From positions 1-29,471 of IMG/VR virus record IMGVR_UViG_3300021440_000093: DNA of 29,471 nucleotides. One strand, 5' to 3'. The position numbers were made by a program, and so were the translations under genes. The stretch is from a virus. Shown here piece after piece: positions 5,297 through 22,837 of the stretch. Within the stretch, counting starts at the first letter, position 1. The number at the start of each line of letters is the position of its first letter. The notes under the pieces were generated by a model that ran no database searches, had not been told where the DNA came from, and worked only from the letters and a program-made list of their open reading frames with translations.

Positions 5297-5368
5297 AGTA
5301 TCACTTATTTCTCATTTGATATAATAATGGAATAGATAGAATATATTATTTGGGAAATAAGTGATACT
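5297..5368 (+). repeat. 72-bp palindromic element, copy A
   Basis: Terminal arms AGTATCACTTATTTC (5297-5311) and its perfect complement (5354-5368) flank an AT-rich core containing ATATAATAATGGAATAGAT. The same element occurs at 7114-7185 (same orientation) and 22766-22837 (inverted). In this copy both arms carry the ATT variant where copy B carries TCT, so pairing is kept. It lies between the primase and the GIY-YIG gene. Confidence 0.9.
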
Positions 5369-5376
5369 TAATCTCA

Positions 5377-6663
5377 TTAAATACGAATAATCTTAATGGC
5401 ATTTCGAGAACAGTAATTCTTTATTGCAGCAGTTACCTTATCTTTAGGTATTTCCACAGTGTTATCAACTACATTATATCCTTCAAGGCATTTGCCCTTG
5501 CTTCTTTGCTTCACAGTAGCAAATACGATGTTATAGTCAAGTCTCTTGATGTATGCAACTGCTCTATAGTAATTGATGTAATTCATATCGCAAATTTCAC
5601 GAAGTTCGTCTTTATCATCAAATACCACAGTCTTTGCATCAACCAAATGAGCATTGATGATTGATGAACATACTGCAGGCAGCAACTGTCTTGACTTATA
5701 CTGACGCTTTGATGACTTGAAGTAAGGCTCAAGGACGGAGCAAATATCTTCAAATGATTTATCCATCAGTATGTCCCACTTATTATCAAAGAAGCGTCTT
5801 ACACCTTTGAAGTCTTGGCTTTCACAGAATTCTTCAGGCTTCATCACCGATGTCTTTACAGCCCAGTCAAATGTATCAAGGAAATCAAATTTAGACCATC
5901 CTTCATTGAATACGTGATTGAGATAAAGAACTCTCATCAATATCTTTGCTCCAAATATCATGCACCAGTTATAACGATGTCCTTCTTTGATCTTCTTCAT
6001 ACGGCCACATGTCATTGAAGGCAATATGACGTCAAATCTCTTATCTTCTTCAATAGTCAATAGATTATGCTTGCGGCAATAATCGGCTGAATTCATTGAT
6101 GGTCTAATCTTTACCTCTTTATCAACATAGAATTTAGGCTGTGTATCCTTCTTAACCCACTTCCAAAGGCGTCTTGAGTTATCAAGGATATATGATGTCT
6201 TGCTGTTAACCGATGAACCAAAGAAGCATTGATAGAAATTTGCTGCGTTCTTATCTAGGACTAGCACATCACAGCGACCACAGACCAATTTATGCAATTT
6301 CTCGTGTTCAGCCTCAAGAACGTCCTTATATTCATCAATAGTGATGGTTCTATGTAAATTGACCAATACATGGAACTTCAAAGGATTATTTGAGGCACTG
6401 TAAGATACTCTGTAATCTGGGTTATCTTTGGTCTTCTCAATCACGGTAGCAATGTTGACGGTTGATTCGTCATAATCAAGAGCAACGAAGTCGGTCTTAT
6501 CGCCGATACGTCCGATGATGCAGCCACAGTCAAGCAGATCGGCTGCTTCATCAAATGTCATATTCTTAAGATACACTGAATGTTCAGTGTTGCATTCACG
6601 CTTATCGTTCTTAGCATCATCTTTATTGATGTGCGTGATGGCGATATACTGTATGTTATTCAT
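5377..6663 (-). CDS. Archaeo-eukaryotic-type primase / replication initiator
   Basis: The gene encodes 428 residues. The N-terminal 140 residues carry the three AEP motifs: FVALDYDES with D63 and D65 (metal ligands), KFH with H98 (nucleotide binding), and VLVLDKN with D137 (third acidic residue). AEP primases of phages and plasmids make primers and sometimes act as primase-polymerases. The C-terminal 250 residues are helical and not recognised; they may be a DNA-binding or initiator module. No helicase, DNA polymerase or ligase is seen in the genome, so this is the sole replication gene and must recruit host machinery. Start ATG 6663 has only a weak AGGA 10 bases upstream. The leader contains a 16-bp hairpin whose loop can pair next to this ribosome site. 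The primase assignment rests on motifs only. Confidence 0.7.
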   Translation of the reverse strand: MNNIQYIAITHINKDDAKNDKRECNTEHSVYLKNMTFDEAADLLDCGCIIGRIGDKTDFVALDYDESTVNIATVIEKTKDNPDYRVSYSASNNPLKFHVLVNLHRTITIDEYKDVLEAEHEKLHKLVCGRCDVLVLDKNAANFYQCFFGSSVNSKTSYILDNSRRLWKWVKKDTQPKFYVDKEVKIRPSMNSADYCRKHNLLTIEEDKRFDVILPSMTCGRMKKIKEGHRYNWCMIFGAKILMRVLYLNHVFNEGWSKFDFLDTFDWAVKTSVMKPEEFCESQDFKGVRRFFDNKWDILMDKSFEDICSVLEPYFKSSKRQYKSRQLLPAVCSSIINAHLVDAKTVVFDDKDELREICDMNYINYYRAVAYIKRLDYNIVFATVKQRSKGKCLEGYNVVDNTVEIPKDKVTAAIKNYCSRNAIKIIRI

Positions 6664-6666
6664 AGG

Positions 6667-6674
6667 CGTCCATT
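6667..6674 (+). repeat. CGTCCATT site 1, overlapping the primase ribosome site
   Basis: CGTCCATT at 6667-6674 recurs at 6767-6774, exactly 100 bp away, and its complement AATGGACG lies in the hairpin loop at 6708-6715. In the primase mRNA this site is AAUGGACG right after AGGA, so the hairpin loop could base-pair here and mask translation start. Confidence 0.6.
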
Positions 6675-6686
6675 CCTAATAATAAA

Positions 6687-6736
6687 GGCTTTGCTGTGGT
6701 ATGCTTAAATGGACGACGCAATACCACAGCAAAGCC
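6687..6736 (-). promoter_or_regulatory. Hairpin in the primase leader, attenuator or origin hairpin
   Basis: GGCTTTGCTGTGGTAT (6687-6702) and its perfect complement (6721-6736) form a 16-bp stem with an 18-base loop. On the minus strand the stem is followed by TTTATTATT, giving a terminator-like shape 24 bases before the primase start. The loop contains AATGGACG, complementary to sites on both sides, one of them next to the ribosome site. This would suit attenuation or a kissing/pseudoknot switch; a DNA hairpin for priming is the alternative. Confidence 0.7.
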
Positions 6737-6766
6737 GGTAAATTCTTCAATTTCAAGCATTCAGAC

Positions 6767-6774
6767 CGTCCATT
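6767..6774 (+). repeat. CGTCCATT site 2
   Basis: This is the second direct copy of CGTCCATT, 100 bp from the first, upstream of the primase hairpin in the direction of transcription. Its RNA can also pair with the hairpin loop, so the two sites could compete for it. Confidence 0.5.
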
Positions 6775-6788
6775 GCCCGTCAGCCTGT

Positions 6789-6794
6789 ATTATA
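6789..6794 (-). promoter_or_regulatory. Possible -10 box for the primase gene
   Basis: The minus strand reads TATAAT at 6794-6789 in the context TAATATATAATACAGG. No good -35 is seen at 16-18 bases. If used, the transcript would carry the 16-bp leader hairpin. Confidence 0.35.
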
Positions 6795-6809
6795 TATTAG
6801 CCTAACTCT

Positions 6810-7112
6810 GCAAATTTCATCAATTTGATGTAAATTTATGTATACAGATGTATACAGCCATTCTGTTACGTATTCAAATATAATAAATTATTCGCAAATT
6901 TAAGGATTTGAGCAGAAATTTCTTTCCGAGTGAGATAACTAGGCAAATTTCCTAGAAATTACATAGGATTTCCAAGCAAATACTCCGAATATATGAGTTA
7001 ATACCTCTTAGACGCCCAATAAATGATGTCTACACCTCTTTCAATAATCGGTAATATATTTACTAGTCTAATTCAAATCGGGTCTTAGAATGCGGTTATG
7101 GGCGGCAAATTT
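6810..7112 (+). repeat. Four GCAAATTT repeats
   Basis: GCAAATTT occurs at 6810-6817, 6894-6901, 6943-6950 and 7105-7112, always in the same orientation. Spacings are irregular (84, 49 and 162 bases), so they are not classical phased iterons, but four direct copies of an 8-mer in 303 bp next to a replication gene are notable. The third copy sits inside CTAGGcaaatttCCTAG. Confidence 0.5.
6839..6856. promoter_or_regulatory. Tandem TGTATACA operator
   Basis: Two perfect 8-bp palindromes TGTATACA (6839-6846 and 6849-6856) are separated by GA, one helical turn centre to centre. This is the look of a repressor or activator operator between divergent operons. No obvious helix-turn-helix repressor is encoded in the genome, so the binder may be a host protein or one of the unknown small proteins. 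Confidence 0.55.
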
Positions 7113-7113
7113 A

Positions 7114-7185
7114 AGTATCACTTTCTTCCCATTTAATATAATAATGGAATAGATTGAATATATTATTTGGGAAGAAAGTGATACT
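7114..7185 (+). repeat. 72-bp palindromic element, copy B
   Basis: Arms AGTATCACTTTCTTCCCA (7114-7131) and perfect complement (7168-7185), 18 bp each, flank the core ATATAATAATGGAATAGATTGAATATATTATT (split here as ATATAATAATGGAATAG and ATTGAATATATTATT). It has the same orientation as copy A and lies 22 bases before the TATAAATA promoter of the rightward operon. Confidence 0.9.
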
Positions 7186-7207
7186 GACGAATTCTCTGAT
7201 AGTAACT

Positions 7208-7224
7208 ATTATAAATACTACGTC
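7208..7224 (+). promoter_or_regulatory. Late-type promoter motif TATAAATA for the long rightward operon
   Basis: ATTATAAATACTACGTC is the exact counterpart of the minus-strand motif at 5255-5239. TATAAATA covers 7210-7217, 43 bases upstream of the first rightward gene. No -35 hexamer is apparent. A 6-bp hairpin CAAGGC/GCCTTG at 7224-7241 follows in the leader. Confidence 0.6.
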
Positions 7225-7260
7225 AAGGCAATTAAGCCTTGCGTCATACGGAGATATATC

Positions 7261-7407
7261 ATGACATCACAGGAAATTAAGAATCGTATCATGGAATTGG
7301 AAGTTATCATTAGGAAGCTTGATGAAGCAAATAAAGTTGAGGAAATGCTCAACGCTATTGACGAACAGCTTGAACTTGCTAATCTCATTCAAATGGAGGA
7401 AATCTAA
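7261..7407 (+). CDS. 48-residue coiled-coil protein
   Basis: ATG 7261 is preceded by CGGAG. The product is almost entirely helical and acidic (MTSQEIKNRIMELEVIIRK...), with heptad spacing of Ile/Leu, and ends NLIQMEEI. It is the first gene of the rightward operon; its stop overlaps the next start (TAATG). Function unknown. Confidence 0.65.
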   Translation: MTSQEIKNRIMELEVIIRKLDEANKVEEMLNAIDEQLELANLIQMEEI

Positions 7408-7586
7408 TGACAGATGTCGAACAGAAGTTAATGGACCTAGAGAATCGCGTCCGCTGGCTTGAACTTAATCAGGGCTTGCCTAAATATCCGGAGACATATC
7501 AAATCAACCCTGCTTGCTATCAGCAGACACCAGCAACACAGGCATGCATGCCAGACGAATATAAAGGAGTAAATAATGGCAAATAA
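7407..7586 (+). CDS. 59-residue small protein
   Basis: ATG 7407 overlaps the preceding TAA; GGAGGAAAT lies inside the upstream gene as ribosome site. Residues 4-22 (VEQKLMDLENRVRWLELNQ) form a short amphipathic coiled coil; the remainder is Pro/Gln/Tyr-rich and probably unstructured. The end overlaps the next gene by 11 bases. Function unknown; tight coupling suggests it works with its neighbours. Confidence 0.6.
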   Translation: MTDVEQKLMDLENRVRWLELNQGLPKYPETYQINPACYQQTPATQACMPDEYKGVNNGK

Positions 7587-7974
7587 GATTATGGTTACTG
7601 CGGAATTGAAGAAAGAACTTGACGAATTGATGCATAGCAACCTTTCATCATATAAGACTATGAACTATGGACGCTTAAGCGATGTATATCAGGCTGAATT
7701 TAAAGGCAAATACTATACGATTACTCGAAAGGATATGCCTGCAAGAAAGGTTGAATGGTGGAAGTACATTACTCAACTGTGGGATAGAGACGCTGAATTG
7801 GAAATCAAGACAGCAAAGCCAATAACTGAACTATGCGCCTGGGATGGTCAATCATATGAACTTGCTGGCACTAGACGTATTGAGACGGCAATGATAGACG
7901 TAAAGGATCCTGAAGAAAGAATGGCAGTTCGTTATTCTGTATTGAAGTCAATGCTTGCTGCTATAAAGGAGTAA
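7576..7974 (+). CDS. Unknown protein, 132 residues
   Basis: ATAAAGGAG stands at the right distance from ATG 7576. The product is a soluble mixed alpha/beta protein with a central YKTMNYGRLSDVYQAEFKGK segment and a Trp-rich stretch EWWKYITQLW, then a helical C-terminus. No motif I recognise. It follows two small coiled-coil genes and precedes the DUF4422 gene by two bases. Confidence 0.75.
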   Translation: MANKIMVTAELKKELDELMHSNLSSYKTMNYGRLSDVYQAEFKGKYYTITRKDMPARKVEWWKYITQLWDRDAELEIKTAKPITELCAWDGQSYELAGTRRIETAMIDVKDPEERMAVRYSVLKSMLAAIKE

Positions 7975-7976
7975 AT

Positions 7977-8567
7977 GTGACATACATCATTTACACAGAT
8001 GACGTAAAGTATTTGCTCGATGACGCCAAAGTCATCAAGAATAATGATCCTAAGTTCGGTGACATTGGCGCATATCACCAAATCTCGGTATCATCTGATA
8101 GAGTGACGATCTTCCAAGGGAGACGTCACCTCATTCTTCCTTCATTTATTGATGAATCAAAGATCTATCACACAGTTCATACATTTGAACCATCATTCAT
8201 GCGTCAGTGGATTGAATCACATCCATCCTATTCATCTTTATTACTTGAAATTGAGTCAAAGATTGCCGCAAAGATGCCTGAATATGCAGATACTATCAAG
8301 ACAGTGAATGCTGGACATGAGATGTATCCTCATAATATGTATTCTATGCCTGGTGTATTATTTCAGAAGTATCGTTCTTGGCTTGACTGGGCACTGCATT
8401 TAGTTGACTTACCAGATAAAGATAAAGTTGGATCTTTGCTTGCTGAACGTCTATTCACCATCTGGATGAAGCATAATGAAGATAAGTATCCTCATGAATG
8501 CGTGAAAGCATGTTGCTATGATAAAGTAACCGGCGAATGCATCAATGATACGGACGGTGTTGCATAA
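7977..8567 (+). CDS. DUF4422-like protein, glycosyltransferase-associated
   Basis: The gene encodes 196 residues from GTG 7977 with AAAGGAG upstream; the overlapping ATG at 7975 reads straight into a stop. The middle and C-terminal parts resemble DUF4422 domains of polysaccharide biosynthesis: a FQGRRHL block where the family has a HYRRY-like block, MPEYADTIKTV, then YPHNMYSMPGVLFQKYRSWLD and GSLLAERLFTIWM. The family is associated with capsule and LPS glycosyl transfer; direct catalysis is unproven to my knowledge. It is short and lacks the N-terminal part of many members. A phage copy could modify host surface sugar or virion proteins and may act with the glycosyltransferase at 25241-26224. 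The match is from memory of family motifs, moderately sure. Confidence 0.55.
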   Translation: MTYIIYTDDVKYLLDDAKVIKNNDPKFGDIGAYHQISVSSDRVTIFQGRRHLILPSFIDESKIYHTVHTFEPSFMRQWIESHPSYSSLLLEIESKIAAKMPEYADTIKTVNAGHEMYPHNMYSMPGVLFQKYRSWLDWALHLVDLPDKDKVGSLLAERLFTIWMKHNEDKYPHECVKACCYDKVTGECINDTDGVA

Positions 8568-8598
8568 CTCTAGTTATTTAGAGTAAAGGAGTAATAAA

Positions 8599-8670
8599 GG
8601 GCCTGTAGCGCAATGGTAGCGCAGTAGCTTTGCATGCTAAAGGTTAGGAGTTCGACTCTCCTCAGGTCCA
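8599..8670 (+). tRNA. tRNA-Ala (anticodon TGC)
   Basis: This 72-base cloverleaf has acceptor GGGCCTG/CAGGTCC with the G3-U70 wobble that identifies tRNA-Ala. The D stem is GCGC/GCGC, the anticodon loop TTTGCAT, and the T arm AGGAG-TTCGACT-CTCCT, with discriminator A. The CCA end is not encoded beyond the natural CC-A. The anticodon stem GTAGC/GCTAA has a G-A mismatch at its outer pair (27-43), and position 38 is T. It reads GCA and probably GCG codons; GCA is frequent in the virion genes. It is transcribed within the rightward operon, 31 bases after the DUF4422 stop, preceded by a small CTCTA/TAGAG hairpin (8569-8584). Confidence 0.92.
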
Positions 8671-8689
8671 TAATGAAAGGAGAATAATC

Positions 8690-8878
8690 ATGGCTGCTAA
8701 GAAAGAACCAAAGGCTACTGCCAATCATATTGACTATAAAGATTCGTCCTTGCATCACGACTTGACTGAAATCAAAGTCTTGCTTGGCTGCATGTTAAAG
8801 GACATTGATAAATTATCAGAGAACATCAATGTAGTTACACGCATTGAGAAGATCAGGGCGGGTATGTGCGATGAGTAA
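8690..8878 (+). CDS. 62-residue protein before the small terminase
   Basis: GAAAGGAG precedes ATG 8690. It has a Lys/Ala-rich start, then a helical stretch DLTEIKVLLGCMLKDIDKLSENI and a C-terminus ending CDE. The stop overlaps the small terminase start by 8 bases, so the two are coupled. No family recognised. A DNA-packaging accessory or regulator is possible from position only. Confidence 0.7.
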   Translation: MAAKKEPKATANHIDYKDSSLHHDLTEIKVLLGCMLKDIDKLSENINVVTRIEKIRAGMCDE

Positions 8879-9305
8879 TGTGCTTGAATGGACTAAAGAC
8901 ACGCTTAAAGATGGTGTTGAACTTTGGAATGATGATAAGGTCATCAACCAGAACGGCACCACATTGAAGCGTAATACGAGACGCCTCAGAGAAATCTGCT
9001 TAGGCGTTATTTCTGCTAATACCGCTGAAGAGTGGTATCGTATTTGCCGTCTTAATGCGCCTGCGGGAACGGTCATTGAACCATTCATTGAAGATTTATG
9101 GATTGAACTGTTCAATGATACCACCGCATTAGTACGCAATGAATTGACGAAATGCCTATTGAAGGAACGCGCTGCAAAGTCAGCTCAGACCTTGCTTAAC
9201 ATTCTTCAGAAGCGTGATAAGGATCATTGGTCAGATAATTCTAAGACTACACAGATAAAGGCTGAAGGCCAAGGTATTAACTTGGAGTTCAGTATTAGAG
9301 AATAG
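8871..9305 (+). CDS. terS: Small terminase subunit (predicted)
   Basis: The product has 144 residues from ATG 8871; the longer frame from 8844 starts within the preceding gene without a ribosome site. It is highly helical and rich in charged residues, with RNTRRLREICLGVISANTAEEWYRICRLNAP near residue 40, compatible with a DNA-recognition helical domain, and a C-terminal ...LLNILQKRDKDHW region. Assignment rests mainly on size, helical character and position four bases before the large terminase. It would select phage DNA and stimulate the motor. Confidence 0.65.
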   Translation: MSNVLEWTKDTLKDGVELWNDDKVINQNGTTLKRNTRRLREICLGVISANTAEEWYRICRLNAPAGTVIEPFIEDLWIELFNDTTALVRNELTKCLLKERAAKSAQTLLNILQKRDKDHWSDNSKTTQIKAEGQGINLEFSIRE

Positions 9306-9308
9306 TAA

Positions 9309-10628
9309 ATGAATACGAGTGAATGGAAAGATGGCAAGCCGGAAATATCCGCTTGGCAAGGTGACTACATCTTTAAGCGATTTAACGATGACTTGGCTAT
9401 CGCTTGCTGTGGTGTAGGTTCAGGCAAATCCGCTGCATTAGCAATGTGGATCGTATTGCAGTGCTGCAAGAAGCCTGGCATTCGCTGCATAATGGTCGCT
9501 CAGGACTATGGCGCCTTGCAGAAAGCCTTGATACGTGAAATTCAAGTATTCTGTGAATGGGCTCATATTGAATATGCTATGCAGAATAAGAAAGAAATCC
9601 ACTTTCCAAATGGTTCGCATATCTTTGGCTATTCTGCTGAGAACCCTGCTTCTGTATTGGGTCTTTCCGAAATTGCTTTGCTAGCTATTGATGAAGCAGC
9701 ATACATTCCAGAGGAAATGTATAACTACTGCCGTGACCGTATGCGTGGCAGCAAATATCCTTCAATGGTCCGTCTTATTTCATCACCTAACTCTTTATCT
9801 AAAGTTCAGAACTGGTTCTCTAACCTAGTTAAGAAATACCCATCAAAGGTCGTGTATGCGTCTTCGCTTGATAATAGATTTACCGGTGAAGAATATAAGC
9901 AAGAGTTGAAAGAACGTTACATTGAAGGATCAAATCTCTATAAGCAGCAAGTACTAGGGCAGATCGTTGATAGCGATGTTGCCTCACAGATCGTTATGCG
10001 AAATATGTTCAGCGGCTGTATGCAAGGCACTTCAAATGATTACTTCTTAGGATATGACGCTTCAGGTCTAGGCGCGGATAAAGATGTAATGGTAGTCATT
10101 AACCGCTGCGGCATCGTTGAAGTTAAAGAATTTCTTGAAGCGGACACATTCCAGAAAGCACAGGCTATTGCTGAACTGTATCAGAAATATCATATCAGGA
10201 ACGGCTTTGCGGACGCCACAGGCGGATATTCAATGGGTGTACTTGATGTACTCAAAGCAAAGAACATCACGGTGAATGGAATTAACTTTGCTCAGAAGGC
10301 ATACACTGAAGATTATCCAAATGCACGAACAGAAATGTACATGGAACTTGCTTCTAGCATTAGAGGTGGTCTTTACATTCCGCAGGATAACATTAGGGAA
10401 GAAATCTTAGCACAGCAAGTAACCATAAATAATAGAGGTCAGCAGGCCCTTGCTCCTAAGGAACTGATAAAGAAGCAAATAGGACATTCGCCTGACCATA
10501 GCGATGCACTTGCCTTAGCTGTATATGCGATGAACCATTATAATACTGAAGTCGAGCAAGGAACTACAGCAGAAGAAGCAGCTGAAATTGCATCTAAGTA
10601 TCTGTATTATTATGGAGCTGAATCATGA
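9309..10628 (+). CDS. terL: Large terminase subunit
   Basis: The gene encodes 439 residues, normal for the family. Walker A GVGSGKS is at 35-41, Walker B LLAIDEA at 124-130 with E129 as catalytic carboxylate, and the coupling motif SSPNS at 158-162. The C-terminal RNase H-like nuclease shows GYDASG (D250), FADATGG (D302) and a final PDHSDALALA acidic motif. It powers DNA translocation into the prohead and cuts concatemers. It is followed by an overlapping HNH gene (ATGA). The missing cos site and circular redundancy would fit headful cutting, but this is inference. Confidence 0.95.
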   Translation: MNTSEWKDGKPEISAWQGDYIFKRFNDDLAIACCGVGSGKSAALAMWIVLQCCKKPGIRCIMVAQDYGALQKALIREIQVFCEWAHIEYAMQNKKEIHFPNGSHIFGYSAENPASVLGLSEIALLAIDEAAYIPEEMYNYCRDRMRGSKYPSMVRLISSPNSLSKVQNWFSNLVKKYPSKVVYASSLDNRFTGEEYKQELKERYIEGSNLYKQQVLGQIVDSDVASQIVMRNMFSGCMQGTSNDYFLGYDASGLGADKDVMVVINRCGIVEVKEFLEADTFQKAQAIAELYQKYHIRNGFADATGGYSMGVLDVLKAKNITVNGINFAQKAYTEDYPNARTEMYMELASSIRGGLYIPQDNIREEILAQQVTINNRGQQALAPKELIKKQIGHSPDHSDALALAVYAMNHYNTEVEQGTTAEEAAEIASKYLYYYGAES

Positions 10629-10948
10629 GAGATAACCATCAGAAAGAGAAGCAGAAATTCCGTGCATCAAAGAAATGGAAGGAATTTCGTGATAGAAAGC
10701 GTCATGAACAGAAGGTTGACCCAGTTACTGGTGCTAAATTGACGAGAATGAGCAATCTGCACCATAAGGATCTAGATGAATCTCATTATGAAGATATTTC
10801 CAATGAAGATAACTTCGTATTTCTTAATCAGATGACACATAAGGTCGTGCACTGGTTCTTCTCTAAATCACATCCCAAGCAGTGGCGTGAACGTATGGAG
10901 AAGTTAATTCCAATTCTTGAAGACATGGAGAGAATCAATGGCAATTAA
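10625..10948 (+). CDS. HNH-type nuclease, zinc-ribbon-free
   Basis: The gene encodes 107 residues and starts inside the terminase stop codon (ATGA). A basic N-terminus (KFRASKKWKEFRDRKR) is followed by DPVTG and a betabeta-alpha-metal core: LHHKD (H46, H47), NFVFLNQMTHKVVH with N63, H72 and H76. The usual cysteine pairs are absent, with DPVTG in the place of the first knuckle. HNH proteins beside large terminases commonly assist genome cutting during packaging; here the coupling to terL supports that. A general DNase is the alternative. Confidence 0.75.
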   Translation: MRDNHQKEKQKFRASKKWKEFRDRKRHEQKVDPVTGAKLTRMSNLHHKDLDESHYEDISNEDNFVFLNQMTHKVVHWFFSKSHPKQWRERMEKLIPILEDMERINGN

Positions 10949-11207
10949 CTGTAAAGGATGTAAGGCTTATTGCTGTCGTAAGATTGGCCTATTGGATCCT
11001 ACATTAGACCGTGGGGACTGTGTATGCAAGCATCTTGATGAGACCACCTGTAAATGCAAGATATATGAGTCTAGACCTCTTATCTGCAATACCGATAGAT
11101 TATATGATGCTGTCTTCAATTTCATGCCACGGGACGAATATGACGCAAATAATGCACAGGGATGCAAAGCGCTCAAAGAACTATTTATAGAGGGAAAGGA
11201 GGATTAA
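10938..11207 (+). CDS. YkgJ-type cysteine-cluster protein (putative metal-binding)
   Basis: The product has 89 residues from ATG 10938, fixed by GGAG 7 bases upstream; the longer frame from 10917 lies in the preceding gene. The cysteines C5-x2-C8-x3-C12-C13, C28, C30, C38, C40 and C50, together with KHLD and IYESRPLIC, form the pattern of the YkgJ/UPF0153 family, proposed to chelate zinc or iron. The family is known mainly from bacteria. Here it stands inside the packaging operon, overlapping the HNH gene and abutting the gp4-like gene. Role in a phage is unknown; a metal-dependent modification or assembly factor are options. Confidence 0.75.
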   Translation: MAINCKGCKAYCCRKIGLLDPTLDRGDCVCKHLDETTCKCKIYESRPLICNTDRLYDAVFNFMPRDEYDANNAQGCKALKELFIEGKED

Positions 11208-12152
11208 ATGAAATCCGTAAGAGAAATTATAGAAGAAGCATGCCATAGAATCAATTTGGTACCTAGACGTCAAGCACCTGCGGGCGACCAGCTTGAGAAT
11301 GGTTATAGACTGTTGAAAGGAATCGTTACGAAGTATAATAACGATAACCTGCTTGCTTGGACGCAGAACTCTATTATCGTTCCTAATAATGAATATATTC
11401 ATATTTATGACGAGACTGATACATTGAAAGGCGAGAATAACCTTTACTTCAGCACAGTTGATGAATTGAATGCTTATGAACTTACTCAGGAAGATTCTGA
11501 GAATGACGTATGGGCAACTGTTGATGGACGACCTGGTGTCATCTGGCGTGTCATGCCGGTTAGCACACAGGGAGGCACTGTCTATACATGGTATGGAGTC
11601 CCAGCAAGACCGCCTTATCCGCAGCGCTATCAACGAATCCTTCAGTATAGAGCAATGTTCAATTTCCAAGTAACTGATATGATGAAGATTAACAGCCTTT
11701 ATTTGGTTACACCGAATAAGCAGCTTCATGCCAAATTGGAATATGTTGCTCCAGCTGACTTTGATAAGTATACTGTAACTGCTCCTGTATTTACATTTAC
11801 ACAGAAATCTGAAGGCGAATGGCTCATACAGTTAAAGCCATCTGTTGCTAAGATGCAGTACGACGTTAAGATTAACTATAACGAAGGTATTGAATTTGAC
11901 CTTAACACTGAACTTTACATTCCAGATAACTATGTTGAATTGCTAATCGTTGCTCTTGCTCATAAGCTTGCTTTAATGTATCCTCGTCTTGATGATGCTC
12001 AGATGCAGCGTCTCGAGAACGAAGTAAGAGTCCTGATTGATAACGTTCAGACTCCTAAAGCAGTTGACAGAATGATTGAACGTTCAGAGTATTTCTATGG
12101 TGACCGTAATATGAGCCAGTCTGAATTGCTTGGTGGTTACGGAATCCTTTAA
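11208..12152 (+). CDS. P22 gp4-like tail accessory / head completion protein
   Basis: The gene encodes 314 residues; AAAGGAGG lies before ATG 11208, directly after the upstream stop. The N-terminal helical segment REIIEEACHRINLVP...QLENGYRLLKGIVTKYNND is like P22 gp4 and related adaptors, where helices pack under the portal. A beta-rich middle and a C-terminal helical part (VELLIVALAHKLALMYPRLD) follow. It is longer than P22 gp4 (about 166 residues) and lies immediately before the gp10-like gene, the same pairing as in P22. It would connect portal and tail and help retain DNA. Assignment is by local resemblance and order. Confidence 0.65.
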   Translation: MKSVREIIEEACHRINLVPRRQAPAGDQLENGYRLLKGIVTKYNNDNLLAWTQNSIIVPNNEYIHIYDETDTLKGENNLYFSTVDELNAYELTQEDSENDVWATVDGRPGVIWRVMPVSTQGGTVYTWYGVPARPPYPQRYQRILQYRAMFNFQVTDMMKINSLYLVTPNKQLHAKLEYVAPADFDKYTVTAPVFTFTQKSEGEWLIQLKPSVAKMQYDVKINYNEGIEFDLNTELYIPDNYVELLIVALAHKLALMYPRLDDAQMQRLENEVRVLIDNVQTPKAVDRMIERSEYFYGDRNMSQSELLGGYGIL

Positions 12153-12161
12153 GGAGAATTT

Positions 12162-13889
12162 ATGGCTTCTCAAGTAAAGCTCATACAGAACATTGCTGGA
12201 GGCATTTCAAAGAGTAACCTAGCCAAAGTAGGCTTAGGCGAGTCTTTGAATATGTTCGTTGAACAGCAGAATCCAACAGAGCATTCAACTTCATTGCTTA
12301 TGAGAACTGTTCAAGGTGAAGTGAAGGCCGCGGACATAACTGGACGATGCCGCGGAATGTACCGCGTGTCTAGAGGTTATGATAATAAGCCTACGCTTTA
12401 TGCTGTATATGACCAGACTCTTTATCTTATTGATGAGTCAAATACAGTTCATGAAATTGGTACTATAAATTCATTTACCACTGAATGTCACATGTGCGAG
12501 ACAGGCGGTTACGGCTCTGCACACCCGCATCTTATCATAGTTGATGGATCATCGGTGTATGCAGTCAACACAGGCCTTTCTATTGGCGACCAACAGCTAG
12601 ACTTGCGTAGAATTGACTTACCGCTTCGAGTTAACTCAACTACTGAGTATATCAAGCCTACGCACTGCGCATACCTTTATGGTTATCTGATCGTCAATGA
12701 TGCTGGTACCGACGCATTCTATACTTCATATCAGTATCCATTTGAAATTGAAGATGCTGAAGATGCTTCATTCTATCAGGATAGAGAAGACTTCATCAAC
12801 TGGTGGATGACGCTTGATGATGCAACCAAAGCATCATATAAAGCTGGTGAAATTCATGACCAATACTATTCACAGTGGCAAGAATTCATTGACGGTGATG
12901 CAGATGATACTCCTGAGAAATATGACATATTCAGAGTTCATACTGTTGAATTTGCTGATTATGGATTCATAACATATTCTGAATGGTGTCCAGATAATAC
13001 CATTGCTCTATGCAGTAATGGTTCAAAGCTCTATACCTTTGGTGAACGTTCATGGCAGGTATTCTCATATAATGATGATAAGAATAATCCGTTCAGTTCT
13101 CCGGATAACGCAGCTGGTAACATTGGTATCAAGGCTCCTAACTCACTTGCTATGCTAGGCAATACTGTGCTGTGGTTAGGATCGAGCGATATTGGTGATA
13201 ACGGCGTGTTCATGATTAAGGACACTACTATCACTCGTATCTCGACACAGGATATTGAAAGAGAACTTACACAGATAATCAATCCTGAGAACGCATATTC
13301 TTCTATCTGGCAGGAACATCAGCACGTCTTCTATTCTATTACCTTTGAAGACAGCAAGAAGACATTCGTATATGATATTGCTGAGAACGCATGGCACTAC
13401 CGTGCTTCTTATAATGATATGAACCGACTTACATTCTGGCGTTATAACCATGTTACATTTGCTTATGGAAAGCAATATGTTGGCACTAAGGACGCGCTAT
13501 GCTATATGGACGAGAATAAGTATACCGAACATGATGACCGTGTTATGTTAAAGATGCGCAGAGGTGGCGTCCTTACATCTGTTGACTGTCCATTCTACAT
13601 TGACAGCGCAGAACTTATCGTTAATAACGGTCAGCAGTCATTTGATAATCACTATGATAACCTTGAACTCAATCCTAGAGTATCAATTCGTTATTCTTGG
13701 GATGGTTCAACATTCAGTGATTATGAAGACTATTATATGGGTAAGATCGGACGTTATGATTGGTCTACTACTATATGGCACTTGGGAATGGGTAAGTACT
13801 TTACATTGGAAATTTCAACGACTGAGCCTATTCCATTTGCTATTGAGAATCTTAAGATCGCTTTCAGTCCTTGCAGCAATTTCATCTAA
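12162..13889 (+). CDS. P22 gp10-like packaged-DNA stabilisation / tail hub protein
   Basis: The gene encodes 575 residues, near the usual length (P22 gp10 about 472) with a larger middle. The N-terminus has the family look: SLNMFVEQQNPTEHST, LLMRTVQGE, CRGMYRVSRG, LYAVYDQTLYLID, the propeller-like repeats of the stabilisation protein. Further beta repeats run through the chain (TYSEWCPDN, GSKLYTFGERSWQVF). AAGGAG precedes ATG 12162. It would form the tail hub holding the DNA in and attaching spikes or fibres. An insertion rich in acidic residues (about residues 195-260) is specific to this phage. Confidence 0.75.
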   Translation: MASQVKLIQNIAGGISKSNLAKVGLGESLNMFVEQQNPTEHSTSLLMRTVQGEVKAADITGRCRGMYRVSRGYDNKPTLYAVYDQTLYLIDESNTVHEIGTINSFTTECHMCETGGYGSAHPHLIIVDGSSVYAVNTGLSIGDQQLDLRRIDLPLRVNSTTEYIKPTHCAYLYGYLIVNDAGTDAFYTSYQYPFEIEDAEDASFYQDREDFINWWMTLDDATKASYKAGEIHDQYYSQWQEFIDGDADDTPEKYDIFRVHTVEFADYGFITYSEWCPDNTIALCSNGSKLYTFGERSWQVFSYNDDKNNPFSSPDNAAGNIGIKAPNSLAMLGNTVLWLGSSDIGDNGVFMIKDTTITRISTQDIERELTQIINPENAYSSIWQEHQHVFYSITFEDSKKTFVYDIAENAWHYRASYNDMNRLTFWRYNHVTFAYGKQYVGTKDALCYMDENKYTEHDDRVMLKMRRGGVLTSVDCPFYIDSAELIVNNGQQSFDNHYDNLELNPRVSIRYSWDGSTFSDYEDYYMGKIGRYDWSTTIWHLGMGKYFTLEISTTEPIPFAIENLKIAFSPCSNFI

Positions 13890-13898
13890 GGAGGTTAC

Positions 13899-14201: not shown

Positions 14202-14231
14202 GACTATTTATCAGGTAAAGGAGAATTTAAT

Positions 14232-14951: not shown

Positions 14952-14963
14952 GTAGGAGATATT

Positions 14964-15431
14964 ATGGGAATTTATAATCGTGATAACATCAATTATGCTG
15001 GAATGATTCAGAACATGCTAACTAACGCACAGCGCGGCGGACAGATTAACGCTGATGAAATTCGTAAGCAAGGTGAAATTTGGGGTGGTGCCGTTAATGA
15101 CATCGGTAGCAAGGCAGCAAATGCATACCTTTGGTCTGACATGTATCTGACTGATGAAGAGAAGTTGCTTGAACAGAAGAAAGCAGAAGCTGAAGCATTG
15201 AAAGCACAGGAATCTGCTATTGCGGTTAACTTGATGAATGACTATTCACAGGATGTTGGAATGGTTGGCAACACTAATAAATACGCTGAGTATAGCCCTA
15301 ACGTTGCTGGAAATTACTCAAGGAGCGCTGTGGCATCTAATCCGTATGCAATCCCTGGAAATCCTTACGCATCACAGGAAGAATACTTTAAGTACATTCA
15401 GGCTATGAACGGTATCTATGGAGGTAGATAA
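14964..15431 (+). CDS. Probable internal virion protein
   Basis: The gene encodes 155 residues; AGGAG precedes ATG 14964. Helical N-terminal part (MIQNMLTNAQRGGQINADEIRKQ), an acidic/Lys-rich helix KLLEQKKAEAEALKAQES, and a low-complexity Asn/Pro/Tyr tail with the near-repeat SNPYAIPGNPYAS. Located between ejection-type proteins and overlapping the next start (TAATG). No family recognised; virion internal protein is inferred from context and composition. Confidence 0.6.
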   Translation: MGIYNRDNINYAGMIQNMLTNAQRGGQINADEIRKQGEIWGGAVNDIGSKAANAYLWSDMYLTDEEKLLEQKKAEAEALKAQESAIAVNLMNDYSQDVGMVGNTNKYAEYSPNVAGNYSRSAVASNPYAIPGNPYASQEEYFKYIQAMNGIYGGR

Positions 15432-16339: not shown

Positions 16340-16341
16340 TA

Positions 16342-17844
16342 ATGGGTGCATTTAAAGATAAGATCGTTGAAGAATTGGCTATGGCCTATCAGGATGATCT
16401 AGCTGAACTCATCAACGGAATGGACTCTGATGTTGATGTGGCAAATTATCTTGCATCAGCTGGTCCTGTTCTTTCAAGACGTTACACTACACCAGATCTT
16501 GAGAAGATGCCGGAGTTCCGTAAGGCACTTTATGCTGAACTTAAGACCGGAAAGGTTGACTACGAGAAAGAATTTGGAAAGGATTGGTATAAGAACTTTG
16601 GACAGATTCCCCTTGACCAAATTAGATTCGTTGCCGATAAGCAAGGTCTCGACTGGAAGGAATTGAATAAGAAGATGGCTGAAGACGCAACCAAAGCACT
16701 TCGTTACGACATTGCTCATGACGGTACCATTGCTGGCGCCATCACTAACATGGTATTCCCGCGTTCAGTTGAAGCGGTTGAACGTGGTGAAAGCCCGTCT
16801 ACTAAGGATGTTACGTTGGATGTTGGCGAGAATGCGCTTTATGCCGTTCCTTGGGCACGCGGTGCTCAGGCTATTGCCAAGGGCGGACGAGTGGCTAAAG
16901 TTCTTTCTAATCCTGTGGTTCAAGGTGGACTTTCTAACGTTACTCAACCACTAGTATCGGAAGTAGCTGATGCAGCTCTTTATGACGAAGGCCCGAGAGG
17001 TGAATTTAACCCTTATGAAGTTGGTGCTGGTGTTGGTACTAACGTCGTTGGCGGTGCATTGCTTAGAGGTGCTGGTGCTGGTATTGGCCGTGTTAATGAT
17101 AAAGCTGGCGCTTGGCTGCGTGATCTTGGTACAGGTAAGACTGCTGCTGAAATGACAGATGATCTTGCTAAGCAGTATAGAACATTCAACATCGCTAACG
17201 CAGATAACCCAACAGTTAGCGCTGAAGTCCGTAAGTTCGCACAGGATATGAAGTCACTTTCTTCAATCAATCCTGAACTTTATGCAGCTGCAGCAGGACG
17301 TAATGCTCCTATCTGGGAAATTGCTGCACAGCCTGGAAAGAACATTGAAGAGAAGACTATCAACTGGCTCAAATCACAGGGCGTGAAAGACTATGCATTG
17401 GTTCAAGGCACAGGCGACATCGTATCATCACCAGACTTGCCTACGCTTTATAATAATGCAAAGGCCGCTGAGCTTGAAGTTACTCCTGAACTTGCTGAAC
17501 ATTATGGACCTATGGCTGCATTCCGTCAGCCTACTACCGAGTATGTTCATTCTCCAGTGACCTATAAGTTGCTAACTAATTATGATAAGTTAGGTCTAGG
17601 AAGAACAGAAGGAGCTAAGACATTGGCTCAACTTGCGGCTGAGGAATCTGTTAAGAATTATATGACTAACCAATTTGGTTCATATCAGAATGAACAGGGA
17701 AAGGCCTTAACACGTATTCCGATCTTTGGACCTTATGTTCAGAAAGTTCTTGATGAGAAGGAAGCTGAAGCATTACGAAAGGCTAAAGAGGAAGCAATTA
17801 AAGAAGACCTCAAGCGTAAGTATAAAGTAATCTTTGGAGAATAA
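16342..17844 (+). CDS. Large ejection / internal virion protein (gp16/gp20-like position)
   Basis: The gene encodes 500 residues; AAGGAG precedes ATG 16342. The N-terminal 130 residues are acidic and helical. The middle (about residues 150-260) is a chain of Gly/Ala-rich hydrophobic segments such as VGENALYAVPWARGAQAIAK and GAGVGTNVVGGALLRGAGAG, fit for membrane insertion. The C-terminus is a Lys/Glu-rich helix. This is the usual make-up of podoviral ejection proteins that cross the host membrane. It carries no lysozyme or peptidase motif that I can see. Its stop is one base before the tailspike start. Confidence 0.6.
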   Translation: MGAFKDKIVEELAMAYQDDLAELINGMDSDVDVANYLASAGPVLSRRYTTPDLEKMPEFRKALYAELKTGKVDYEKEFGKDWYKNFGQIPLDQIRFVADKQGLDWKELNKKMAEDATKALRYDIAHDGTIAGAITNMVFPRSVEAVERGESPSTKDVTLDVGENALYAVPWARGAQAIAKGGRVAKVLSNPVVQGGLSNVTQPLVSEVADAALYDEGPRGEFNPYEVGAGVGTNVVGGALLRGAGAGIGRVNDKAGAWLRDLGTGKTAAEMTDDLAKQYRTFNIANADNPTVSAEVRKFAQDMKSLSSINPELYAAAAGRNAPIWEIAAQPGKNIEEKTINWLKSQGVKDYALVQGTGDIVSSPDLPTLYNNAKAAELEVTPELAEHYGPMAAFRQPTTEYVHSPVTYKLLTNYDKLGLGRTEGAKTLAQLAAEESVKNYMTNQFGSYQNEQGKALTRIPIFGPYVQKVLDEKEAEALRKAKEEAIKEDLKRKYKVIFGE

Positions 17845-17845
17845 C

Positions 17846-20368
17846 ATGAGATCATGGGATAATTGGAACAGATATCAGGATAACCAGAACCATCCTTTGC
17901 ATGGCTGCATTCAGTTCATGGTTAAGGATGGAAATACGGTTGCTCCTATCTATGACGCTGATGGCGTAAGTCTGCCCAACCCAATCATAACTGACGTATA
18001 CGGTAGAACACAGCATCAGGTCTTCGTAGAAGAAGACGTTCGTGCTTATTTCTACCTTTACATTGGCGATGGTTCATGGGCATCAGAACAGGACATTGAC
18101 ACTTCGGACATTACGAAGTGGTCTTTGCAGTATACATCTGAAAGCATTGACTCATCAACAGTTAACATTAACGCAACAGCCGCTTATGCAGTGAATAGCA
18201 TTGCCGATCTTCGTGCGTTAGACCCTGCATCTATTCCTTCATTTGATGGACATACAGTTATCACATTGCTTGGATATAACACAGCCGGCGATAAAGAACC
18301 AATTAACTATGTGTGGGATCCTACAGCACATGCTGCAGATGACGGCGGATCTGTTATAGCTGGGTCTGAGCTTACTGGCCGTTGGATAATGGTTCAGCCT
18401 ACAGAGCATCTTGATGTAAGACATTTCGGCGTCTTTCCTTCAAATTCTCAGAATATGTCAGACCAGACCATTCAGATTCAAAGAGCTTGCATTTATGCAA
18501 ATAATCATGGACTAAGAATGTTCTTTGATATGGTCAGCGATACACAGACATATCGTTACTATAAGTTGAGCAATATCACCTTGACTCCTGTTCAGACTAT
18601 TGACGTTGCTAAAGGCGTGCAGTTCATTGATAGTGATGTAACTATCAGAAGTTCAAGTGTTCAAGCATTCAATAATGATCCTTACTTCATTAACGCATCA
18701 ACTAACCTTTACAGCAATTATGCTAAGTCAAGCTGGAACATCAAGACTTTGAATAAAGCACAGGCTAACGTTGAAGGAACTTACATCATTGATGACGCAA
18801 GCAAGTCAACTAACATTACTACGCTGCAGGGATGGAACGTAAATGTAAATGCTAACATTTCAGGATTTACATTCCATCTATGTAACATCAGCGGTCTAGG
18901 TATCATTTCAAATTCTACTATTACATCATGCCTATTGGATGTCATTGGTACTTTGGATGTTGGAAATACATATAACGCATGTAAATTGACTAAGCAGATG
19001 TTCAATAACACACCTGCACATGCTGGCATTCATGGTTGCTTCTTGGATGTTGCTGACTTCTATGAATACTTGCCTTATTGGACATACCTTAACTGGTCGC
19101 AAGACACTACTGCATTAGACTTTAATAACATGCCTGTAACGCAGAACATGGACATCAACTTTGCGAATAAGTCTGCTGACTGGGTTATTTCTAACTTCAT
19201 TGGAAATGGTCAACATAAGTTCTATGAAGCAGGCGTAACACATGTCTATACATTCAATAACTGCAAAGGTAATATCACATTGATGGCTAACTGGGTTGAT
19301 AATGTGTATATCTTCAATGACTGCGATGTTAACATTACAGTTGAGACAGCAAATCGTGCTATCACTATTCAGTGTAATGGCGGTAATGTTAACTTTACAC
19401 AGGACTTGCCTAATGCAGTAATCATTGGAAGATCATCTAATGTTGGATTGCAGAATACATATAAAGAACTCGTATTCAGAGACTCCTCATTTGCTGGACC
19501 TACTGATTCGTCCGTGGTTACATGTGATAACTTCACTTCATATAACTCTATCATTATGGAAGCAGTCCGTGCTAAGAACATGGTCGTTAAGGATTCTCAA
19601 ATCAATAAGAAATTAACTTCAATAGTTAACTCTGACCATCAGCTGACGTTCTTCTTGGATAATAACATCTTCAACGCACAGCATGAGCTTAACACTGATA
19701 ATGAAAGCAACGTTATAGTTGCGGCTGGTACCTGGACTAATAACACTGCGGCAGTTGCGGATCCTATTATTCTCACGGCAGGACTTTATCAGACTGATGC
19801 AGCTCACCACTATGTATATGAGAATAACACAGGAACGTTCTTGCCAAAGAACATAAAGCAAATGTTCCAAGCACAGGGATGCTACACTATCTATGGCGAT
19901 GTATGGCATGCATATTACTTGAATGCGCCTGAACTGTTCACAGTTCCACACCTAGTCTATAGAGGTGATGCATTCCCTATCCTTGATGGTTCTAACCGAG
20001 CAAGATATGCATACGGCGTGTTCATTCCGCAGTTATGGCAACCTAACTGTGCGTTCTTCAGCATTGGCGCTGCAATTAAGAGAGTAAAGCTGACTGTTCA
20101 TGTACCGTTCAGCGGTAACGTATCACCGTTAAATGGTACTTCATTCAGCCCAGTCGCTGCTTGGGATTACGCATATAGTGCCGAACTAATCATAACAGCA
20201 AATGGCGCTAATCATAAGTTGACTGAATTTAACGGACAGATGCTTGCTGGTCCGCAGTACATTCCTTATTCATACGATTTGCCTAAGGATGTACCGTATG
20301 ACAGCTCGACCATTCCACCCGCTGATGCAGGTTCAGGCTACTTTATGATTGAGATTGAAATATCTTAA
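17846..20368 (+). CDS. Tailspike with predicted beta-helix
   Basis: The product has 840 residues from ATG 17846 (GGAG six bases upstream); the longer reading begins at a TTG inside the preceding gene. Residues 1-110 look like a virion-attachment domain: HGCIQFMVKDGN, PNPIITDVYGRTQHQVFV, YLYIGDG. Residues 150-215 resemble the entry to pectate-lyase-type spikes (INYVWDPTAHAADDGG, HFGVFPSN, TIQIQRACIYANNHG). A long Asn/Thr-rich beta-solenoid follows (about 220-650), then a compact C-terminal part. Such spikes bind and often cut surface polysaccharide; catalytic acids cannot be assigned. Lying between the ejection genes and the portal is unusual. Confidence 0.75.
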   Translation: MRSWDNWNRYQDNQNHPLHGCIQFMVKDGNTVAPIYDADGVSLPNPIITDVYGRTQHQVFVEEDVRAYFYLYIGDGSWASEQDIDTSDITKWSLQYTSESIDSSTVNINATAAYAVNSIADLRALDPASIPSFDGHTVITLLGYNTAGDKEPINYVWDPTAHAADDGGSVIAGSELTGRWIMVQPTEHLDVRHFGVFPSNSQNMSDQTIQIQRACIYANNHGLRMFFDMVSDTQTYRYYKLSNITLTPVQTIDVAKGVQFIDSDVTIRSSSVQAFNNDPYFINASTNLYSNYAKSSWNIKTLNKAQANVEGTYIIDDASKSTNITTLQGWNVNVNANISGFTFHLCNISGLGIISNSTITSCLLDVIGTLDVGNTYNACKLTKQMFNNTPAHAGIHGCFLDVADFYEYLPYWTYLNWSQDTTALDFNNMPVTQNMDINFANKSADWVISNFIGNGQHKFYEAGVTHVYTFNNCKGNITLMANWVDNVYIFNDCDVNITVETANRAITIQCNGGNVNFTQDLPNAVIIGRSSNVGLQNTYKELVFRDSSFAGPTDSSVVTCDNFTSYNSIIMEAVRAKNMVVKDSQINKKLTSIVNSDHQLTFFLDNNIFNAQHELNTDNESNVIVAAGTWTNNTAAVADPIILTAGLYQTDAAHHYVYENNTGTFLPKNIKQMFQAQGCYTIYGDVWHAYYLNAPELFTVPHLVYRGDAFPILDGSNRARYAYGVFIPQLWQPNCAFFSIGAAIKRVKLTVHVPFSGNVSPLNGTSFSPVAAWDYAYSAELIITANGANHKLTEFNGQMLAGPQYIPYSYDLPKDVPYDSSTIPPADAGSGYFMIEIEIS

Positions 20369-20400
20369 GAACCTAATTATTGACAGTAAAGAGGTTAATA

Positions 20401-22278
20401 ATGAACGATAAATCATTTGATAATGAAGAGATAATCGCTCAATGCGAAAGCTTCCTTTCAAAGTCAGATAAGCGCTTTGCTAATACGATTGACAGAGCTG
20501 TGGATGATATGAGACGCTATTCCGGAGACTTCTGGAATACGTCTTTCATTCGTAAGTATAAGAGAGGAAAGCGTATAAATCTTGCATTGAATAACTGGAA
20601 CCCGCTAGCTAACGCAATTAGCTCGCCAATCTCAAATTCACCTTGGCATATCGAGTTGACGAATAAAGAGAAGGAACTTGATGTTATTCAGCAAGCTATT
20701 GACACGATTGAAGCAGATACAGATACCAAGAGTGCATTGGTTGATGCATTCCGTAAAGCAGTACTTACAGGATACGGCTTCTTGGTCGTTACTACCGTTG
20801 AAGACGAATACACAGGCGAACCTAAAGTAATCGTTGAGTCAGCAACTCACATTGATGCTATTGCATTTGACCCGTCATGTACATCAGTTGAAGGATCTGA
20901 CGCTGAAGAAGGCGCTATCATCAACTATATGCCAGTTAAGAAAGCAAAGCGTCTTTATGGCGATGACGTGGTACCTGAGTATTTCCCATCCATTGACACA
21001 GCAATTTCATTTAATAACTTTGACCAATGGACTGTTCCAGATGATTCAGTTGCTGTCATTTCTTACTTCGTTAAGAATAAGCAGGACATGGTTGATTACT
21101 ATAAGATCGTAGGCGATAAAGTGGTACAGCATACAGTATTGCCTATACGCTTTATTCCTATCATTCGTATCGCTGGTAATGAAATCTTCGAGAAAGACCA
21201 GATTAACTATAACGGTATCATTCAGCAGACATTGACATTGGAACTTGGTGCTAACATTGCGTATTCTTCTCTGATTGAAAGAGTAGGTCGCTCCGCTAAA
21301 GCCAATATCATGGCTAACGTAGATGCAATTAAAGGACTTGAACAGAACACCGCAGCAATGAACCAAGATGATTCTGTCGCTATCCTTTGGAAAGGCGAAC
21401 ATCAGCCAGTACTTCTTCAGGAACAGTTCCAGACTGGTGACCTTCAGGCAACTATCAGTACATGCCGCACATTGATGGAAGATACCTTGGGTATCCCATT
21501 GACTGGTATAGTAGATCAGAAGGAACGCACAGCAACTGAAATTCTCCGTCAGGAAGCATCTAAGGAATCTAACACTGCATCTTACTATAATAACGCATAT
21601 AAGGCAGTAAGATTGCTTGGAAAGATTATCATTGAACTCCTTAATGAAGGCCGTGATTTGATGTTCACTTTAGAGAACGGACCGTCTGTAATTACGAGAG
21701 AAATGAAGGCACGTCAGGAATTGACTGCTATGTCAACTATCATGCCTGATGAAATGAAGCCAATTATCGCTAAGTACTTTGCAGATACATTGAAGAATGA
21801 CCTTGGACAGGAATTGAGCGATAACATAGTTGCTAACCTTCCACCTAACGTCAAATTCGTTACTGCTAATCAGGATCCGGCTGCTATTCACGTTATGAAT
21901 CAGATGCAAGCTCAGATTGATGATACATTACAGCAACTTGAAGAATCTCGCGCTGAAGCAGAACAGCTGAGACAGCAGTTAACTGCAGCACAGTTGAGTA
22001 TGTTGGATAACCGTGAACAGCGTGTACTTGACTTCCAGAAGTTCCAAATTCAGCAACAGGATAAGATGCTTCTTGAGACTGCTAAATTGCAGCAACAGGG
22101 TGTCAAGATTGATAATGATGCTATGTTGAAGCAACAGGAAGTCAATATCAAGGCTGCTGAAAGCAGCATGGCTAAAGCAGAAGCTGAGACTGACGCTGCA
22201 TTACGCGAACAGCAGGCATACATTGACGGTGTTGCCGATGGTTCCGTGGAGACAGTTAAATCCATCATAGGAGGCTAA
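20401..22278 (+). CDS. Portal protein, P22 gp1-like
   Basis: The product has 625 residues from ATG 20401 with AGAGG upstream. Recognisable are the N-terminal RFANTIDRAVDDMRRYSGDFW, the DAIAFDPSCTSVEGSDAEEGA segment typical of P22-type portals, and EKDQINYNGIIQ. Also present are ERTATEILRQEASKESNTASYYNNAY and a long C-terminal Gln/Glu-rich coiled coil (520-600), matching the barrel-type tail of P22 gp1. It forms the dodecameric DNA channel and works with the terminase. It lies far downstream of terL, unlike in P22. Confidence 0.85.
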   Translation: MNDKSFDNEEIIAQCESFLSKSDKRFANTIDRAVDDMRRYSGDFWNTSFIRKYKRGKRINLALNNWNPLANAISSPISNSPWHIELTNKEKELDVIQQAIDTIEADTDTKSALVDAFRKAVLTGYGFLVVTTVEDEYTGEPKVIVESATHIDAIAFDPSCTSVEGSDAEEGAIINYMPVKKAKRLYGDDVVPEYFPSIDTAISFNNFDQWTVPDDSVAVISYFVKNKQDMVDYYKIVGDKVVQHTVLPIRFIPIIRIAGNEIFEKDQINYNGIIQQTLTLELGANIAYSSLIERVGRSAKANIMANVDAIKGLEQNTAAMNQDDSVAILWKGEHQPVLLQEQFQTGDLQATISTCRTLMEDTLGIPLTGIVDQKERTATEILRQEASKESNTASYYNNAYKAVRLLGKIIIELLNEGRDLMFTLENGPSVITREMKARQELTAMSTIMPDEMKPIIAKYFADTLKNDLGQELSDNIVANLPPNVKFVTANQDPAAIHVMNQMQAQIDDTLQQLEESRAEAEQLRQQLTAAQLSMLDNREQRVLDFQKFQIQQQDKMLLETAKLQQQGVKIDNDAMLKQQEVNIKAAESSMAKAEAETDAALREQQAYIDGVADGSVETVKSIIGG

Positions 22279-22281
22279 CGT

Positions 22282-22758
22282 ATGCTCTTTAACGTATTGA
22301 ATGGCGGTTCTGTTGGTGCTGGAGGAAATCCAGCCGCTAACATGCAGACGCAAAGAATGCATGACGAGTTGCTGGACATCGCCAATCTTCCGGACTATTA
22401 TGCAGTTATGGCCTTGCCTCCTGGTCCTCAGAAGGAAATTGCTATTGCTGCATTACATGACCAAGCAGAACTTAATGAAGCAATGGTACCTGAATACTGG
22501 AAAGATGATGCTGTTCCTCGTCAACCTTTAACATTACAGTCTTCATGGGTTCAACCAATTCAGTATGACCCAGTGACTAAGGTTATGACTGTGTTCGGCA
22601 AATCTTACGCTAATGTGGATCCACAGACTGTATCAGATATCGTAAATGGCGACATGTTCGTTCATAAGCCAGGTTCAATTGGTTCTGCTATGAATAAATT
22701 CTGGGATGATAGATTTGGTGTTGACCGTCCTAGAGGACGTGCTGCTAAAGGCATATAA
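22282..22758 (+). CDS. KTSC-domain protein
   Basis: The gene encodes 158 residues; AGGAGG precedes ATG 22282, three bases after the portal stop. The C-terminal half (SSWVQPIQYDP, VMTVFGKSYANVDPQTV, GSIGSAMNKFW) matches the KTSC domain: an SS start, a YD-x-TV-FG-Y beta pattern and a final S-G-xx-F. The N-terminal half is helical, with LPDYYAVMALPPGPQKEIAI. KTSC domains occur in phage and bacterial proteins with no settled function. It may bind portal or DNA. It is followed by 72-bp element C. Confidence 0.65.
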   Translation: MLFNVLNGGSVGAGGNPAANMQTQRMHDELLDIANLPDYYAVMALPPGPQKEIAIAALHDQAELNEAMVPEYWKDDAVPRQPLTLQSSWVQPIQYDPVTKVMTVFGKSYANVDPQTVSDIVNGDMFVHKPGSIGSAMNKFWDDRFGVDRPRGRAAKGI

Positions 22759-22765
22759 GAAATAA

Positions 22766-22837
22766 AGTATCACTTATTTCCCAAATAATATATTCAATCT
22801 ATTCCATTATTATATTAAATGGGAAGAAAGTGATACT
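22766..22837 (-). repeat. 72-bp palindromic element, copy C (inverted)
   Basis: In reverse orientation it matches copy B except for one arm. Its left arm is AGTATCACTTATTTCCCA (A-type) and its right arm is the complement of the B-type arm, so two stem positions are unpaired. Flanking TTAAG and a CAAATTT block next to the B-type arm also resemble the left flank of copy B. It sits between the KTSC gene and the scaffold gene. Confidence 0.9.

Follow-up and report, generated by a model that had tools for sequence, protein, structure and literature searches.

Three near-palindromes in a near-complete phage contig

The window analyzed here is the whole 29,471-base record IMGVR_UViG_3300021440_000093, a near-complete contig of a small, rumen-type phage (W), with 211 bp repeated at both ends (one mismatch) and a P22-like portal and terminase among its genes; window coordinates are used throughout. 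Three 72-bp near-palindromes, copies A, B, and C, lie beside the gene of a putative AEP-like primase/initiator (PRIM), between PRIM and the divergent long operon, and before a scaffold-like gene, respectively (Table 1). Their positions, with C inverted, agree exactly with those in a preliminary description made from the sequence alone. Terminal repeats of 15 to 18 bp, as described there, are found in A and B, while in C perfect pairing extends over 10 bp and is followed by two mismatches. Copies B and C (minus strand) are 90% and 93% identical to A, with E-values against the A query of 2.2e-24 and 6.5e-27 (7.8e-34 for A itself). As also described, the differences between A and B fall at paired positions and leave pairing intact in both, and C is a hybrid of the two: on the minus strand, its left arm is B-type and its right arm A-type. 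The three palindrome scores were 22.6, 19.2, and 18.2, against a maximum of ∼16 when 1.5 Mb of related genomes was shuffled once; three such elements are far beyond chance. Within the window, exact matches to the arm motif are confined to the hairpins, and near-matches (≤2 mismatches) show no excess over chance.

Table 1. Coordinates of features in the window and in related contigs
Feature	Location	Strand	Description
T5orf172-domain ORF	4521-5222	-	Immediate neighbor of copy A
Hairpin copy A	5297-5368	+	72 bp; 8 bp past PRIM stop codon; perfect arms 15 bp
PRIM	5377-6663	-	Putative AEP-like primase/initiator, 428 aa; motifs D63xD65, H98, D137
PRIM predicted winged helix	about 5449-5682	-	Residues about 328-405; structure model
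Inverted repeat	6687-6736		16 bp, perfect; just 5' of PRIM
Hairpin copy B	7114-7185	+	72 bp; between PRIM and long + operon (divergent); perfect arms 18 bp
tRNA-Ala (TGC) gene	8599-8670	+	
Well-conserved ORF	12162-13889		Query for relatives
Insertion hotspot	22759-22945		Gap before scaffold-like gene
Hairpin copy C	22766-22837	-	72 bp; A-type/B-type arm hybrid; between ORF 22282-22758 and scaffold-like gene
Conserved protein	26217-26702	-	
In-frame RepX palindrome, G012	C1:21243-21338		
In-frame RepX palindrome, G018	C1:3052-3149		
In-frame RepX palindrome, G033	C1:405-524		
In-frame RepX palindrome, G037	C1:22363-22448		
Repeated motif, G016	C1:5430-5660 and 13338-13565		Around both hairpins
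Repeated palindrome, G017	C1:88-688		

Several other features of the window were recorded. The perfect inverted repeat just 5' of PRIM, GGCTTTGCTGTGGTAT, is not related to the 72-mers, and a tRNA-Ala gene follows further along. Relatives of the T5orf172-domain ORF next to copy A are found in family members that lack PRIM. An origin-directed nuclease with a T5orf172 domain is known from phage ICP1 (PMC8263062); a corresponding link between the present ORF and PRIM was considered and is unsupported, with no similarity detectable between the two.

PRIM carries primase-type motifs and a predicted winged helix

Members of the AEP superfamily carry the ordered motifs I (hhhDhD/E), II (sxH), and III (hD/E) (PMC5862659), and all three are found in this order in PRIM. 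The residues concerned are invariant in an alignment of 5/5 PRIM homologues and follow the same order as D111/E113, H145, and D171 of pRN1 ORF904, a by-eye match of modest weight. The AlphaFold2 model of PRIM is poor overall (mean pLDDT 58.5); its C-terminal stretch, with pLDDT mostly near 80, is modeled as helix, strand, helix, helix, and strands, i.e., a winged helix. Comparison of PRIM with Pfam and PHROGs gave no family match, transposases included, which is not proof of absence, and profile comparison with pRN1 Rep by hhalign found nothing. Fold searches with the low-confidence model were not significant, and a second look yielded ties near Z 5 without a known primase, carrying no weight either way. 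Since profile and fold comparisons gave no confirmation, the designation of PRIM as a putative AEP-like primase rests on its motifs.

A hairpin adjoins PRIM in all five genomes found to encode it

Scans of IMG/VR with the coat protein and with the well-conserved ORF yielded about 60 distinct contigs, all of which were read. Within this family set, PRIM is encoded only by W, G011/G004, G055/G044, and G050, and a hairpin of 72 to 81 bp adjoins it in each. An early idea that every family member has a hairpin was dropped, as many are without one. The three 72-mers of G011, which is also present as the same phage within contig G004, occupy the same sites as those of W and share their center. The outer arms in G011 are TGTTACCGAT as opposed to AGTATCACTT in W, with pairing preserved; the core of B is flipped between the two phages, so that B and C of G011 are direct rather than inverted. 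Contig G004 itself (58,000 bp) joins the whole G011-like phage to about 25 kb from another family member and is either a chimeric assembly or a cointegrate.

A blind test of the association was provided by a PRIM-profile scan of all IMG/VR, in which G061 was the sole new genome and was recovered via PRIM alone. Its PRIM is 55% identical to that of W, as compared to 28% for TerL, 23% for the portal, and 20% for the coat. G061 contains four hairpins, all of 72 bp with the shared core and a third set of arms, GGTTAACATA, one of them overlapping the PRIM stop codon. Altogether, a hairpin lies beside PRIM in 5/5 distinct PRIM genomes (W, G011, G061, G055, and G050), with the caveat that W and G011 are not independent. 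In 4/5 the distance to the PRIM stop codon is at most about 16 bp (8 bp in W, 16 bp in G055, at or over the stop in G011 and G061), and only 3 to 7% of ORFs in these four genomes have a hairpin within 20 bp of their stop; in G050 it is upstream of PRIM instead. Conversely, scanning IMG/VR with the core DNA pattern matched five contigs, all members of the PRIM set except for G062, a short piece of a phage resembling G061, and PRIM is present in 3/3 that include the replication region. A different pattern, AGTATCACTT...AAGTGATACT, was discarded when its sole match in IMG/VR proved to be an unrelated contig. A host search of 84,980 prokaryote genomes found no relative of PRIM or of the well-conserved ORF, and phage and plasmid records likewise yielded none for PRIM.

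Each genome has 1 to 4 hairpins, and those not beside PRIM lie at positions that differ from one genome to another. The preliminary description had named relatives with conserved gene order and no element among the observations that would refute its reading. This is the situation at site C in several relatives, and the site is empty in many family members; of these relatives, those that include the replication region lack PRIM, except for G055, whose hairpins lie elsewhere. Another protein of the window, termed sigma-like in that description, is kept in most family members (Table 1) and has no Pfam or PHROG match.

Hairpin arms diverge while the center is retained

Arms and core were compared over W, G011, and G061, with positions 19 to 54 taken as the center. 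Within a genome, identity over the outer 10 bp is 100% for both arms, and between genomes it is 30 to 50%; for W and G011, identity over the outer 2 × 10 bp is 0.40 as compared to 1.00 within genomes. In contrast, identity of the center is 0.94 within genomes and likewise 0.94 between W and G011. PRIM of these two phages is 80 to 90% identical over residues 1 to 320 and 48% identical over residues 328 to 400, the predicted winged helix. Divergence of both arms and winged helix is the pattern expected if site and binding domain change together, which the five genomes compared for arm turnover and PRIM divergence may suggest but cannot prove.

The 72-mers as candidate replication or priming sites

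The element is linked to PRIM and probably concerned with replication. More specifically, the 72-mers may be DNA-level recognition elements, i.e., origins or priming sites, for the phage's own PRIM, a reading to which we give slightly better than even confidence. Of the candidate functions in the preliminary description, binding of a replication initiator is thus the one favored, given the co-occurrence of element and primase gene and the change of arms with the predicted DNA-binding domain; a miniature mobile element is retained among the rival readings, and inversion sites and RNA hairpins fare poorly, as set out below. In the mechanism that we propose, PRIM winged-helix domains would bind two inverted 10-bp half-sites, the AT-rich center between them would melt or be extruded, and the primase domain would lay a primer at the opened center for extension by host enzymes. 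Each copy would then act as an origin or as a site of single-strand initiation. The ancestral copy would be the one adjoining the PRIM stop codon, and the others would be additions kept uniform by recombination; gene conversion between copies, selected by PRIM, is the simplest guess for the concerted change of arms. Against origins, three or four dispersed copies exceed what an origin needs, copies not beside PRIM differ in position between genomes, as with the one between convergent genes in G055, and GC skew does not turn consistently at the hairpins.

The nearest worked example for the proposed hairpin mechanism is, by analogy, pRN1, in which a stem-loop of ∼100 nt downstream of the AEP initiator gene is needed for replication, and the isolated 100-bp stem-loop restores replication of a deleted construct (PMC4234260). 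The sequence of that stem-loop is poorly conserved between relatives while its fold is held, and a similar stem-loop has been reported beside replication genes in Bordetella phages (PMC4234260). The present system resembles pRN1 in that PRIM combines AEP-type motifs with a predicted C-terminal winged helix, as does ORF904, and in that a long AT-centered hairpin of varying sequence and constant fold lies just 3' of the gene in W, G055, G011, and G061, though upstream in G050. PRIM is, however, smaller than ORF904 and without a profile match to it, and in the phages the copies are dispersed and combine a conserved core with arms particular to each genome. PRIM also has no Walker-A motif, and thus not the SF3 helicase of the pRN1 type, so that it is described as possibly working like pRN1 rather than filed as a member.

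Other systems share single aspects. RepB' of RSF1010 is a primase that recognizes the hairpins ssiA and ssiB, one per strand (PMC4434180), a pairing of primase and hairpin sites like that proposed for PRIM; unlike the 72-mers, each ssi site spans about 40 nt and includes a 21-nt hairpin, and RepB' is reported to consist of a catalytic domain and a helix bundle, with no winged helix (PMC4434180). In PLE, the DNA-binding domain of RepA covaries with the origin sequence and both swap as a module (PMC8263062), although its origin consists of iterons at one place and its initiator is unrelated (PMC8263062).

If the origin reading is right, one gene and a set of 72-bp sites would make up a compact phage replicon in which origin specificity changed several times while center and architecture stayed fixed. 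Coevolution of initiator and origin would be testable by swapping the 10-bp arms and one winged helix, the idea of a stem-loop origin would extend past pRN1, and the element would be a marker for replicon exchange among gut phages whose capsid genes are only very distantly related.

Alternative explanations

The main rival, which we consider unlikely, is that the 72-mers are mobile nonautonomous hairpins, REPIN-like, which spread within phage genomes by PRIM or recombination and have no duty to the phage. Like the REPIN/RAYT system, they are dispersed hairpins of a type tied to one linked gene (PMC3116915); variable copy number and off-PRIM positions, near-identity of copies within genomes, the hotspot character of site C, and the related in-frame palindromes described below all accord with mobility. 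The linked gene in REPIN/RAYT is, however, a tyrosine transposase, and the elements reside in bacterial chromosomes at high copy number (PMC3116915), while no transposase signature was found in PRIM. Copy C is flanked by an 8-bp direct repeat, TAAGAAAT, which lies two bases off its left end and abuts its right end; this would accord with mobility, as a weak, post hoc observation. Lack of target-site duplication, as noted in the preliminary description, thus holds at A and B but is qualified at C; no consistent duplication was present in the flanks of 15 copies, which speaks against a target-duplicating MITE. Retention of all three sites in both W and G011 with every arm replaced is not expected of dead insertions. 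The origin and mobile readings are not exclusive, as copies of an origin module could likewise spread to other places.

We regard as rather unlikely that the 72-mers head operons as promoters or operators under a phage regulator, which might be PRIM itself. Most copies do lie within about 120 bp upstream of some gene start, and the core includes a TATAAT-like sequence; on the other hand, one hairpin of G055 is placed between the convergent coat and glycosyltransferase genes, the scan yielded 0 promoter-like matches covering a whole copy, and the core of site B flips between W and G011.

A doubtful reading is a primase-driven hairpin family: dispersed palindromes that a linked AEP-like primase, and not a transposase, would copy within phage genomes, the specificity of their half-sites being rewritten in concert whenever the binding domain of the primase changes.

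Function as RNA hairpins (terminators, processing sites, or mRNA stabilizers) is very unlikely. The predicted RNA stem-loops are strong (−19.5 to −34.5 kcal/mol), but copies occur in both orientations, wobble pairs are not restricted to one strand, and B is situated between divergent operons. Orientation, which would be fixed for a strand-specific RNA hairpin, differs between copies and between the orthologous B copies of W and G011, and this unconserved core orientation argues for a function as duplex or cruciform DNA and not as a transcript. The promoter/terminator scan found no U-run terminator, and such scans and Rfam were uninformative. Finally, site-specific inversion around the structural operon, for which the 97% complementarity of B and C over 75 nt could be cited, is highly improbable, as B-C gene order is the same in G011, whose B and C are direct through a flip of the B core itself, and no recombinase gene was recognized among the ORFs scanned.

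A second class of palindromes and the site C hotspot

Longer AT-centered palindromes were found in or just 5' of an uncharacterized gene, RepX, in G012, G013, G016, G018, G033, and G037. In four of these genomes a palindrome of 86 to 120 bp is translated in frame near the start of the RepX ORF (about 400–470 aa; Table 1). Linkage of RepX and palindrome is 6/6 but partly circular, the set having been seeded from genes near palindromes; a profile search found no further RepX gene without a palindrome. A fold search with RepX, a second putative replication protein, found nothing. G012 is a complication, in that the arm type of its RepX palindrome differs from that of its two other copies, a pattern that recombination would leave.

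The gap before the scaffold-like gene, in which copy C lies, and its equivalents in relatives form an insertion hotspot. It is occupied by hairpins in W, G011, G012, and G013, by tRNA-like sequences in G016 and G001, by a gene and tRNA-like sequences in G009, and by a gene in G014, and is followed by a conserved leader, CTAATTATT...GGTAACGGTG...CACCG. Around both hairpins of G016, and within their outer arms, the motif GATGCCCA / GATGACCACTTT is repeated above shuffle frequency. The palindrome GTTTCATNATGAAAC is repeated in G017, with similar repeats in G018, G037, and G043; these repeats are possible operators or iterons.
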